Positions 37,418 to 42,490 of a DNA stretch of 64,000 nucleotides are shown here, piece by piece; the stretch's first letter is position 1, and each line of letters begins with the position of its first letter. The notes below the pieces were generated by a model. That model was given only the letters and a program-made list of their open reading frames with translations, did no database searches and was not told where the DNA came from. This DNA comes from Halobacteriales archaeon QS_6_71_20 (GTDB taxonomy: Archaea; Halobacteriota; Halobacteria; Halobacteriales; Haloferacaceae): positions 62,001 through 126,000 of the forward strand of contig PXRU01000026.1 in assembly GCA_003020945.1 (NCBI GenBank). The letters are read 5' to 3'. Position numbers and translations under genes: made by a program.

Positions 37418-40400
37418 TCACATGAAGTCCGCGATGCTGCCCTGTTTGTTCTTGTCGTTCTCGAACACGGACTCCAGCGAGCGGTCGAGGATCTCGAGGC
37501 GCTGTTTGGTGTACTCCCGGCAGCCGAACTCCTCGGCGACCCGGCGGGCCACGTCCATGTACTTGTTCACGGAGCCGCGGTGGACGGTGAGCGTCATGTC
37601 GCCGCCACACTCCCGGCAGTCGCCGGTGAGCGGCATCCGCCGGTACTTCTCCCCGCAGTCGAGGCATCTGGTCTCCTGCCGGCTGAACGCCCGGAGGTTC
37701 CCGATGAGGTCCGGGAGGAAGTGGTACTCGATGACGCGCTCGGCGACGTCCGTCTCGTCGACGGCGCGGAGCTTCCGGGCGAGTTCGAGCTGGGCGTCCA
37801 TCTTGTCCATCATCGACCCGAGCGTCTTGTACGCCGACAGGTCCGGCCCGAGCGCGATGTCGGTCGTGTCGTGGGTGTGGTCGAAGCCGCGGTACTCGTC
37901 GTCGGTGCCGAGCGTGTCCTCCCCCAGTCGGATGCGCTCCGCGACCGACTCCGGATCGGCCATCTCCCGGGTCGCCTCGTAGAACTCCCTGGGGTACTGT
38001 CGGACGATGTCCATGTTGTGCGCCTCGTCGTCGATCTCCGTGGGATCGATCCGCGAGGACATGACGAGGGGCGCGTCCATTCGACCGCCCCGCTGGTCCG
38101 GGAGGAACGACTTGCTGAAGTTGAGCAGCCCGTCCATGAGCAGCATGACGCAGTCCTCGTCGCCATCGCATTGATTTTGTGACATATCGTTGGCGACGAG
38201 CGAGTGCGTGTCCTCGACCGTGAGGCAGTAGGTGTGTTCCGTATCGGACTCGATGTACTCGACCGTGGAGACTGATTCCACGAGCGCGTCCGATAGCCCG
38301 CCATCGAAGGCTCTGCGTTTCATCGTCCCCCGCTCTCGTACCTGTCTTTTGAGGCGCGCGTCCTTGCGCTGAAGGTGGAACCCGACACGTTCGGCGAATC
38401 TCGCGGCGTCTTCGGCCGTGACGGTGATCACGTACGCCCGTGCCGACACTGCGGGATCGTCGATCTCGTAGAACTCGGGGAACTTCTCGACTAACGGTAC
38501 GGGATCTGTCGTGTTTACCCGACTGACGATACCCAGTCTCGTGAGTAGCGCCAAGAGGTCCTCTTTTAATTCCCGGCTAACAGTCGTCGCATTGACGGCG
38601 GCCGTGTTTCTATCGGCGGTCCCGTCGCCGCTGAAGTAGCCGCTAAGATACGCCTCGATGATACGGTTCTCGGCGTCGAAAACGCACTGTGGAACCCGTT
38701 TCGTTCCCGCGAGTACACCGGCGTCGAGTACGGTGTCGAAGAACGCACGGAGCAACCTACCCGAAACGGTGACCTTGGCGTCGTTCTCGCGGTACGGGTC
38801 GACGCCGAACTCCTCGCGCAGAACCTCGACGTAGAACTCACGCGCCTGCGCTTCGGTTCCACAGATCGTCGTCTGATGGATCGTGCCCTTCGGCGTCTCC
38901 TGCTCCCGCGCGAATCCCTCCGCGGCGTAGTAGCCGAGGAGCGTCGCGACCCGTTCGTTCAGTTCGACGGTTCTGTGGATCTCGGTCGAGTCCCGCTTCA
39001 CGCCCAGCTTCACGTCGGCGGGGACGAACGCGAGCATCGCGTCGGTCGAGTCGAAGAGCTCAAGCAGCAGGTCCGCCGGAAGGCTTCCGCGGTAGAGGTA
39101 GTTGCTCAGGCCCTTCTTCGAGAGCCCGAGGTACTCCGCGGTGCTTTTCAGCGGGTAGAATTGGCCGTCCCACCCGTCGGCCAACCGGTCGGTGAACAGC
39201 TCGTAGAGCGAGTCCTTCTCCAGCCCTTTGATCATCAGCCGGTCGTTTCCGATCGTCTCCGAGTCGACGAACTCGGCGAGAAGGTCGAACCGCTTCGGAC
39301 TGCTGCCGTCGATCACGTCGAGGTGCGCCGGCTTGACGACGTGGTCGTTCTCACTCAGATCTCTCGCGGCCTTCGAGTCGATCTCGTCGCCGTCGAGGAC
39401 GTGCATCTCGTGGTCCGGCGTCACCGTGATCTCCCGGCCGCTCCGCGTCTCCACCCGAACCATGTGGTCGGGTGCGACGTGCTTCGACACCGCCTCGACC
39501 GGCCTCACCACCTCCTCGCCGTCCTCGGTCACCGACGGGACGAACACGTCGCCGTCGAGTTCGGAGACGAGCGTTCCGAAGTCGTCCTCCTCCGGCTCCT
39601 CCAGTCGCGCCTCGACGAACTCGTCGATCCGGCCGTGGTGCCACTCGTCCGCCTCGTCACGGTACCAGAGCTTCGTCTCCGGATGGAAGCAGTTCCGGCG
39701 CTTCGCGGCGTGGAAGTACGGGTGTGCGTACCCCACCGCGGCGCTCGTGAACCCCACGACCCGGCCGACCACCGCCGCGCTGGTGTGCGGCGCCATCCCG
39801 AACACGAGTTCGCCCACGAGGTCGTCGCGCTCGTTCACTTCGTAGAACGGCTCCAGGTCGTAGAAGTCCGAGAGGAGTTCGTCGACGAAGTCGGCCGTCC
39901 TCATCATGTGCTCGGCGGCGCCGTCCGAGAGGACGACGTCCTGCACCTTCAGCTCGACCAGCTGGTCGTCGTGGACGAGCGGCTCGCCGTCGATGTCCGT
40001 CTCGTACCCCAGCTCGCGGAAGTGGTCGGCGGTGACGTCGAGCTCCTCGGGGCGGACCGACGTGACGGGGAGGTCGGTCATATCGTAGCGGACAGTGCCG
40101 TCCTTGAACGAGGAGACGCCGTGTTTGGCCCGGAAGATCCCCTTCTCGATCGGCTCGGGCGTCTTGTCCGCCGAGGTGAGTCCCTTCACGCCCTTCAGCA
40201 TCTCGAAGCCGGCCTCGCGCTCGTCGGCCCGCTCCAGCGCCGACCAGTACTCCTCGTCGAGGTCGATCGTCTGCCAGTCGGGGCTCTCGACCTCGCGTTC
40301 ACAGCGCGGACACTCCACCCGACCCGACTCGTCCGGCTCACGGACCGTGCCGCACTCCTCGCACTCGTAGTGGGGCTCGGTGTGGGCGCCGCAGTCGGGA

Positions 40401-42490
40401 CACTCGGGCTTGAACGTATGTGTGCCGCAGTCGGGGCACGCGCGGTCGCCGACGAGCGCGTCGTACACCCCCTTCCCCTGCTCGGTGCGCTCGCGGGCCG
40501 CCTGCCCGACGGAGCGCTGGTTGCCGCCGTGTTCCTTGATCGGGAACAGCGTGTGGACCGCCGGCGACAGCTCGCGGCTCTCGGACTTCTCCGGGCGGCC
40601 CATCCGGTTGCCGATCCGGGTGGGGGCGCGCTCGCGCACCGTGAACTCCGCCACCTCGTTGACCGCGCGGATCGCGTTGTCGCCGCCGTCCCACTCGCGG
40701 GCCGTCGCCGAGAGGTCGGCGGACTCCCACTCCCGCCGGAGCCCGTCCGTGACCCCCAACTGCCGGAGGAGGGGCCGGAAGTCGGGGATCCGGAGGGCGT
40801 CCTCCGTCTGGGTGTGCTCGACGAGCAGCGTCTCCAGCGCGCCCCGTACCGGCTCCGTGTGCTCGACGACGAGGAGGTCGCCGGTCACCTCGCCGTTCGC
40901 GGCCGCCTCGGCGACGGCGTCGTACTCGTCGACGGAGACGTCGTGCCAGCAGTAGGTGTAGGCGGGGTGTAGCGGCGCGTCGTACTCGTCGACCCACGCG
41001 AGCGCCCGCTCGGCGTCGGGGTCGTCGAGGTCGACCCGGAGGTCGTCCCGCAACGCCTGCAGGTCGGCGCCGGCGGCCGCGAGGTCCTGCTCCCACCACT
41101 CGCGGACGTAGGAGGCGGGCGCCAGCGGGTGGTTGTTCTCGACGAACTCGCCGAAGTTGACGAGGTACTCGCCCAGGTCGAGCACCGCCTCGACGCCGTT
41201 CCGGAGCTCCTTCGCCTCCGCGGGGTCGTCGATCCGGCGCACGTCGCCGTTGGCGAGGCGGACGGTCGGCCCCTCGATGGAGTCGACGGGGACGACCCCG
41301 CCGGCCTTTCCGGGGCGCTCGGTTTTGATCTGGGTGCCCGTCGCGAGGAAGTCGTCGACGATGTGCATCGTCGCCGGGTGGACGCCCGCGGTCGCGAAGC
41401 CGTGGTTGCGCGCGCGGCCGTACCGCAGTCGGAAGCCGCCGGGCTCCGAAGGGTGGCCGAAGACGGGCCGTCCCGCGATCAGGTCCCGCAGGAACTTCTC
41501 GGAGGAGTCGGGCCGCGGCGACCCGGTTCCTCCGGCCGCCTCCGCCGCGTCGTCGTCGGCGTCGGCAGTGGTCGCTGTGGCGTCGCCGTCGACGCTCGCT
41601 CCCTCGCCCTCGCCGTCGCTCTCGGCCTCGCCCTCACCGCCGCCGGCGTCGTAGTACGTCCCGTCGATGAGGTCCTGGAGCCACGGCCAGTCCACCTCGT
41701 CGAGCTTGCGGGTGTAGCGCTGGATCTTCGGCGCCTTCAGCGCGATCCCCTCCGCGAGCACGAGACACATCCCGCCGCGGGCGGAGTTGGTGTCGACCCG
41801 TTCCAGGTCCCGGAAGCCGGAGACCTCCTCGTCGCCGGTGGCCTCCCCGTCGAGCATGATCGGCATGTGCTCGGCGATGAACTTCGTCTCCTCGTCGCTC
41901 GGGGTGTACTGGAGCCCGGTCTCGGTGTCGTACAGCGCGATCTCCTCGGCGTACCGCTCCACCTCCCGGTCGCGGGCGCGGAACTCGTCGATCCCCAGCA
42001 GCGCTCGGGCGTAATCGCCCACCAGCACCGACAGCGCCTGCGCGGTGCCGCCCGCCGAGCGGATCGGGCCGGCGTAGTAGACGTTGACGAACTCGGTGCC
42101 GTCGTCGTTCTCCAGGATCTCGACGCGGTCGATCCCCTCGATGGGCGCGGCGACCACGCCCTCGGTGAGCAGCGCGACGGCGGTCCGGACGGCCCCCTCG
42201 ATCTTCCCCGCGCGTCCGTCGAAATCGCCGACGCTCCCCTCCACGAAGTCGGTGACAAGCTCCAGGGCGGCCTCCTCGCGGGACGTCTCCCCCTCCAGCT
42301 CCCGGACGCGCTCGGCGACGCCCGGAATGCCGAGGATGTTCTCGACGCGGTCGGCCATGTCGCGGGCGACGGGGATCTCGATCTCCGTCTCGGGGTCTTT
42401 CCCACGGGACTTGGCGGCCTCGGCGTGCTCGAACGCCTCGTCGAGCCGCTCCTCGATGCGCGCGAAGTAGCGCTCGTCCTCGGGCCTCAC
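37418..42490 (-). CDS. polC: DNA polymerase D large subunit (DP2) interrupted by an intein; 1690-aa precursor, ~1183-aa spliced product
   Basis: ERLDEAFEHAEAAKSRGKDPETEIEIPVARDMADRVE; YYAGPIRSAGGTAQALSVLVGDYAR; HAAKRRN//CDGDEDCVMLLMDGLLNFS; C-terminal Zn finger CLDCGEKYRRMPLTGDCRECGG. Confidence 0.95.
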   Translation of the reverse strand: MRPEDERYFARIEERLDEAFEHAEAAKSRGKDPETEIEIPVARDMADRVENILGIPGVAERVRELEGETSREEAALELVTDFVEGSVGDFDGRAGKIEGAVRTAVALLTEGVVAAPIEGIDRVEILENDDGTEFVNVYYAGPIRSAGGTAQALSVLVGDYARALLGIDEFRARDREVERYAEEIALYDTETGLQYTPSDEETKFIAEHMPIMLDGEATGDEEVSGFRDLERVDTNSARGGMCLVLAEGIALKAPKIQRYTRKLDEVDWPWLQDLIDGTYYDAGGGEGEAESDGEGEGASVDGDATATTADADDDAAEAAGGTGSPRPDSSEKFLRDLIAGRPVFGHPSEPGGFRLRYGRARNHGFATAGVHPATMHIVDDFLATGTQIKTERPGKAGGVVPVDSIEGPTVRLANGDVRRIDDPAEAKELRNGVEAVLDLGEYLVNFGEFVENNHPLAPASYVREWWEQDLAAAGADLQALRDDLRVDLDDPDAERALAWVDEYDAPLHPAYTYCWHDVSVDEYDAVAEAAANGEVTGDLLVVEHTEPVRGALETLLVEHTQTEDALRIPDFRPLLRQLGVTDGLRREWESADLSATAREWDGGDNAIRAVNEVAEFTVRERAPTRIGNRMGRPEKSESRELSPAVHTLFPIKEHGGNQRSVGQAARERTEQGKGVYDALVGDRACPDCGTHTFKPECPDCGAHTEPHYECEECGTVREPDESGRVECPRCEREVESPDWQTIDLDEEYWSALERADEREAGFEMLKGVKGLTSADKTPEPIEKGIFRAKHGVSSFKDGTVRYDMTDLPVTSVRPEELDVTADHFRELGYETDIDGEPLVHDDQLVELKVQDVVLSDGAAEHMMRTADFVDELLSDFYDLEPFYEVNERDDLVGELVFGMAPHTSAAVVGRVVGFTSAAVGYAHPYFHAAKRRNCFHPETKLWYRDEADEWHHGRIDEFVEARLEEPEEDDFGTLVSELDGDVFVPSVTEDGEEVVRPVEAVSKHVAPDHMVRVETRSGREITVTPDHEMHVLDGDEIDSKAARDLSENDHVVKPAHLDVIDGSSPKRFDLLAEFVDSETIGNDRLMIKGLEKDSLYELFTDRLADGWDGQFYPLKSTAEYLGLSKKGLSNYLYRGSLPADLLLELFDSTDAMLAFVPADVKLGVKRDSTEIHRTVELNERVATLLGYYAAEGFAREQETPKGTIHQTTICGTEAQAREFYVEVLREEFGVDPYRENDAKVTVSGRLLRAFFDTVLDAGVLAGTKRVPQCVFDAENRIIEAYLSGYFSGDGTADRNTAAVNATTVSRELKEDLLALLTRLGIVSRVNTTDPVPLVEKFPEFYEIDDPAVSARAYVITVTAEDAARFAERVGFHLQRKDARLKRQVRERGTMKRRAFDGGLSDALVESVSTVEYIESDTEHTYCLTVEDTHSLVANDMSQNQCDGDEDCVMLLMDGLLNFSKSFLPDQRGGRMDAPLVMSSRIDPTEIDDEAHNMDIVRQYPREFYEATREMADPESVAERIRLGEDTLGTDDEYRGFDHTHDTTDIALGPDLSAYKTLGSMMDKMDAQLELARKLRAVDETDVAERVIEYHFLPDLIGNLRAFSRQETRCLDCGEKYRRMPLTGDCRECGGDMTLTVHRGSVNKYMDVARRVAEEFGCREYTKQRLEILDRSLESVFENDKNKQGSIADFM
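38171..39691 (-). other. Intein in PolD large subunit, 507 aa, LAGLIDADG homing-endonuclease type
   Basis: N-terminal CFHPETKLWY, block B GREITVTPDHEMHV, two dodecapeptides LLGYYAAEGF and YLSGYFSGDG, C-terminal HTYCLTVEDTHSLVANDMSQNQ followed by extein Cys (CDGDED). Frame preserved (1521 nt). Confidence 0.95.

Follow-up and report, generated by a model that had tools for sequence, protein, structure and literature searches.

The DP2 gene (PolD large subunit) of Halobacteriales archaeon QS_6_71_20, in a window of 64,000 nucleotides (contig PXRU01000026.1, positions 62,001 to 126,000), is interrupted in frame by an intein that ends in Gln and has no His before it, which raises the questions of how such an insert is removed and whether its ending sets it apart. 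The insert belongs to the known pol-IIa (Pol-II) allele and is a class 1 intein of full length. It very probably removes itself by the standard four splicing steps, carries a homing endonuclease and has inherited its terminal Gln. The features of the gene are collected in the table.

Features of the DP2 gene and its intein, in positions of the window
Feature	Position	Strand	Basis
DP2 (PolD large subunit) gene with in-frame intein, 1690 aa, GTG start	37418..42490	-	ORF and family models
N-extein, DP2 residues 1-933, last residues HAAKRRN	39692..42490	-	sequence; vacant alleles
pol-IIa intein, 507 aa (Cys1 to Gln507)	38171..39691	-	sequence, alignment, structure match
Block B, TVTPDHEMHV (step 1 Thr and His)	39398..39427	-	T98, D100 and H101 invariant in 25-sequence alignment
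First LAGLIDADG dodecapeptide, LLGYYAAEGF (acidic Glu, Asp in two relatives)	38912..38941	-	alignment
Second LAGLIDADG dodecapeptide, YLSGYFSGDG (acidic Asp invariant)	38621..38650	-	family models, alignment
Blocks F and G, TYCLTVEDTHSLVANDMSQNQ (F:4 Cys, block F His, penultimate Asn, terminal Gln)	38171..38233	-	alignment, ending tally
C-extein from CDGDED (Cys+1 and catalytic Asp pair)	37421..38170	-	sequence; PMC4996933

The intein occupies residues 934-1440 of the DP2 ORF without an internal stop, begins with CFHPETKLW and ends with LVANDMSQNQ, directly before the CDGDED of the C-extein. The DP2 models of Pfam and NCBIfam match both flanks, and the insert itself is matched by PF14890 Intein_splicing (E 9e-14), TIGR01445 intein_Nterm (E 3e-14) and PF14528 LAGLIDADG_3 (E 1e-15). 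An earlier sequence-only reading had given the coordinates of the 507 codons exactly, and all the motifs that it named are present; its call of a LAGLIDADG intein at the known Pol-II/DP2 site agrees with the vacant alleles, the family models and a published allele. The class 1 features include Cys1, Cys+1 and the block B Thr and His, all invariant in the alignment, and the cyclisable C-terminal residue of this class is provided in the sequence by Gln. The penultimate His, a common class 1 feature, is replaced by Asn; class 1 membership stands because this His is optional. The F:4 Cys brought a class 3 mechanism into consideration, which is ruled out by the presence of Cys1. In a tally of 91 distinct inteins, every one has Cys1.

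The position of the insert, precisely at the boundary of HAAKRRN and the catalytic CDGDED, is established by empty alleles that read HAAKRRN-CDGDED in four congeneric species and in many other genomes. Because the vacant congeneric alleles read RRN-CDGDED, both intein junctions are fixed, and with them the C-terminal Gln without penultimate His that the sequence-only reading had taken from the ending SQNQ before Cys. That reading had named a true junction at a nearby Asn as the result that would overturn it, and the vacant alleles, which fix the extein, exclude such a junction. A C-terminal junction elsewhere, for example after SQN, would yield a canonical Asn and could appeal to the Asn that stands before the terminal Gln; it is nevertheless extremely improbable, as the vacant alleles define the extein, Gln is no nucleophile as a +1 residue, and this Asn is not conserved, given that relatives have G, K, D, A, R, S or L in its place.

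In the DP2 insert, a Hint splicing domain is accompanied by an endonuclease with two LAGLIDADG motifs and the PI-PkoII fold. An AlphaFold model of the intein (pTM 0.88) finds its best PDB match in the PI-PkoII intein endonuclease (2cw7, E 1.8e-28), and I-DmoI structures also match the endonuclease part. Over the 18 C-terminal residues pLDDT falls below 50, so the active-site geometry, including the placement of Gln relative to the block F His, cannot be read from the model. In an alignment of 25 inteins, the Asp of the second dodecapeptide is invariant and the acidic residue of the first is Glu or Asp in all; both acidic residues are kept in the DP2 intein, as the sequence-only reading had stated. 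Judged from alignment and model, two dodecapeptides with acidic residues and the matching fold identify the insert as a predicted LAGLIDADG enzyme. Against the three nearest relatives, the endonuclease segment has dN/dS values of 0.12, 0.10 and 0.08, no higher than those of the exteins in the same pairs (0.13, 0.19 and 0.20), although these values are rough because the intein has a higher dS and a lower GC3 than the exteins (0.83 vs 0.95). By such pairwise comparisons, both the Hint and the endonuclease segments are under purifying selection, and homing activity is likely. The higher dS and lower GC3 are compatible with weaker codon bias or with a separate transfer. The intein is 56-80% identical to 24 relatives at the site and is nested among full-length haloarchaeal copies in the Hint tree; it is homologous to its site-mates and not a new invader.

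Within the genus, the DP2 site was compared across 11 genomes, including this one: four are vacant, two have a 181-aa mini-intein ending in AQ, and five have the 507-aa form. The vacant sites differ from the joined site of the window by 2-5 mismatches in the central 30 bp. The vacant alleles in the same genus also mean that the intein is dispensable. In the extein tree, two sister alleles (L147 of G014 and L149 of G016) consist of one vacant site and one with a 181-aa mini-intein, a pair that points to recent loss or gain of an endonuclease-less intein. The coexistence of full, mini and empty sites in one genus, together with purifying selection on the endonuclease, fits an ordinary homing cycle.

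The C-terminal Gln without penultimate His had been put forward as a mark of something special to this intein, a view that the endings across the phylum do not support. A scan of the C-terminal junction in 394 genomes of the class listed 150 matches. Of these, 50 are vacant (RN) and 96 carry Gln ahead of CDGDED. Among the Gln matches listed, the preceding residue is G, K, A, R, N or L and never His. Outside the class, the 106 matches listed for the phylum comprise 42 GQ, 3 AQ and 61 RN. Twenty of these Gln matches were read and all 20 are inteins, mostly 165-aa mini-inteins, with three of 474-476 aa ending in AQ and two others. Among 111 distinct inteins collected at the DP2 site across the phylum, 107 end in Gln and four in Asn, and none of the 111 has a penultimate His; the penultimate residue, both endings taken together, is G (51), K (25), A (18), D (7), N (4), R (4), S (1) or L (1). 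At the block F His position, 91 have His, as does the DP2 intein here, 19 have Asn and one has Gly. About 20 of the 111 (e.g., L103, L113 and L117), with Asn or Gly in the block F slot, are also devoid of the penultimate His, and these inteins without either step 3 histidine combine that state with a C-terminal Gln. The Asn-ended members are mini-inteins (L063, L064, L065 and L066, ending in AN, KN, GN and AN, respectively), and their endings represent apparent Gln to Asn changes in two places of the Hint tree. An intein at locus L132, which we take to be the Methanoculleus marisnigri JR1 copy, ends in FCGQ and likewise has no penultimate His; a 195-aa intein (L081) may be that of Halobacterium salinarum, a guess on which nothing rests.

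Judged from these endings, Gln without penultimate His is the rule for the pol-IIa allele in Halobacteria, methanogens and other Halobacteriota, and Gln with a drifting penultimate residue reads as an inherited property of the allele. Since methanogens share this ending, it is not a halophile-specific salt adaptation. Nor does it belong to the organism, because eight further inteins read in the same genome are all Asn-terminal. Six of them end in HN, namely those of RIR1 (VHN), the RFC small subunit (two inteins, MHN and THN), a HerA-like ATPase (VHN), RNA polymerase A'' (THN) and PolB (LHN), and two end in SN, those of dCTP deaminase (LSN) and RtcB (VSN), with gene names assigned by eye from the exteins. 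The genome (G000) is intein-rich, with inteins on contigs C1, C2, C4, C8, C10, C12, C17 and C26.

Splicing of the DP2 intein is proposed to begin with an N-S acyl shift at Cys1, assisted by the block B Thr and His (step 1), and to proceed by transthioesterification to Cys+1 (step 2). The C-terminal Gln would then cyclise with the aid of the block F His instead of a penultimate His (step 3), and an S-N acyl shift would rejoin HAAKRRN to CDGDED in the DP2 catalytic loop (step 4), leaving the ligated peptide HAAKRRNCDGDED. Inteins that end in Gln are known to splice by the class 1 route, in which the Gln cyclises (Mills et al. 2014, PMC4031507), and about 5% of functional inteins have no His at G:6 (PMC4031507). 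The loop into which the intein is inserted also carries the two catalytic Asp residues of DP2 (PMC4996933), and the unspliced precursor should therefore be an inactive polymerase. Homing is most likely driven by the nested endonuclease through cleavage of vacant DP2 alleles. As for the persistence of Gln, the change of CAR (Gln) to AAY (Asn) would take two substitutions by way of Lys or His, neither of which can cyclise; this two-step barrier of the code in an essential polymerase probably keeps Gln in place and needs no regulatory benefit. The anatomy of the intein, its junctions, the distribution of the family, the selection on the endonuclease and the patchy occupancy of the site are observed; that the intein splices, the rate at which it does so, the cutting by its endonuclease and the reason for Gln retention are points that we infer.

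A different account of the ending is that Gln without His was selected, such that slow or salt-dependent splicing gates the maturation of PolD. The Pol II inteins of Pyrococcus abyssi (Pab) and M. marisnigri splice slowly via Gln and are both accelerated by Asn, which in the Pab intein makes C-terminal cleavage 20-fold and splicing 3-fold faster (PMC4031507). By analogy, slow splicing of the DP2 intein, as the sequence-only reading had suggested, is plausible; the conditional splicing and regulatable PolD maturation that it also raised are conjectural. Two reviews describe salt-activated splicing in halophilic archaea (PMC10663303, PMC7765530), the former citing a salt-dependent H. salinarum intein (Reitter 2016), and a regulatory role was suggested for the P. 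horikoshii (Pho) Pol-II mini-intein (PMC8229266). While the retention of Gln in 107 of 111 inteins could be read in the same direction, a gate with which congeners of vacant allele dispense, whose ending methanogens and halophiles share, which mini-inteins have exchanged for Asn in two places of the tree and whose penultimate residue drifts freely is an unlikely object of selection, and the mutational barrier accounts for Gln without benefit. A frozen mutation behind the two-step barrier would explain Gln at least as well as regulation. The broader claim, that His loss and Gln retention across Halobacteriota DP2 inteins reflect a selected, phylum-wide slow gate on polymerase maturation and not a frozen accident, is quite unlikely.

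The absence of a His-Asn ending could instead signal that the intein is in decay or does not splice, so that DP2 is left broken. This is very improbable, as the reading frame is open, all other splicing residues are conserved, the Hint and endonuclease segments are under purifying selection, and similar endings occur in intact genes of about 100 genomes. A self-splicing pol-IIa intein with an inherited Gln is the preferred account.

The DP2 intein joins an already published allele and alone adds little. A survey of 118 genomes (Soucy et al. 2014, PMC4071816) includes 75 halobacterial sequences of the pol-IIa allele; another 16 come from other Euryarchaeota. Many members of the allele are mini-inteins, and its polyphyly is taken as a sign of transfer (PMC4071816). 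Both the allele and the Gln chemistry are in the literature (PMC4071816, PMC8175363, PMC4031507). The set surveyed here, of about 100 homologous inteins with a fixed Gln, a drifting penultimate residue, Asn changes in two places and about 20 members without both step 3 histidines, serves two questions: what catalyses the cyclisation of Gln where the usual histidine is missing, and whether slow splicing is under selection or just tolerated.

Of the known systems, the closest are the haloarchaeal pol-IIa inteins (PMC4071816; e.g., Natrinema versiforme and the Halobaculum and Halobonum copies), which share the site, Cys1 and Cys+1, the His-less Gln end and a LAGLIDADG endonuclease. The DP2 intein is 66-80% identical to the Halobaculum, Halobonum, Natrinema and Natronorubrum copies, and its penultimate residue is Asn compared to Lys in the nearest haloarchaeal relatives. 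The Pol-II mini-inteins of P. abyssi and P. horikoshii (2LCJ, 5BKH, 7OEC) reside at the same site, between HAAKRRN and CDGDED exteins, and end in Gln; unlike the DP2 intein, they still have His as the penultimate residue (THQ in Pho), have no endonuclease and belong to a different phylum. The M. marisnigri Pol II intein shows slow Gln-dependent splicing that improves with Asn (PMC4031507), but is a 165-aa mini-intein of a host that is not an extreme halophile. PI-PkoII (2cw7), the best structural match over both the Hint and LAGLIDADG parts, has 19% identity in the structural alignment and resides at a different host site.
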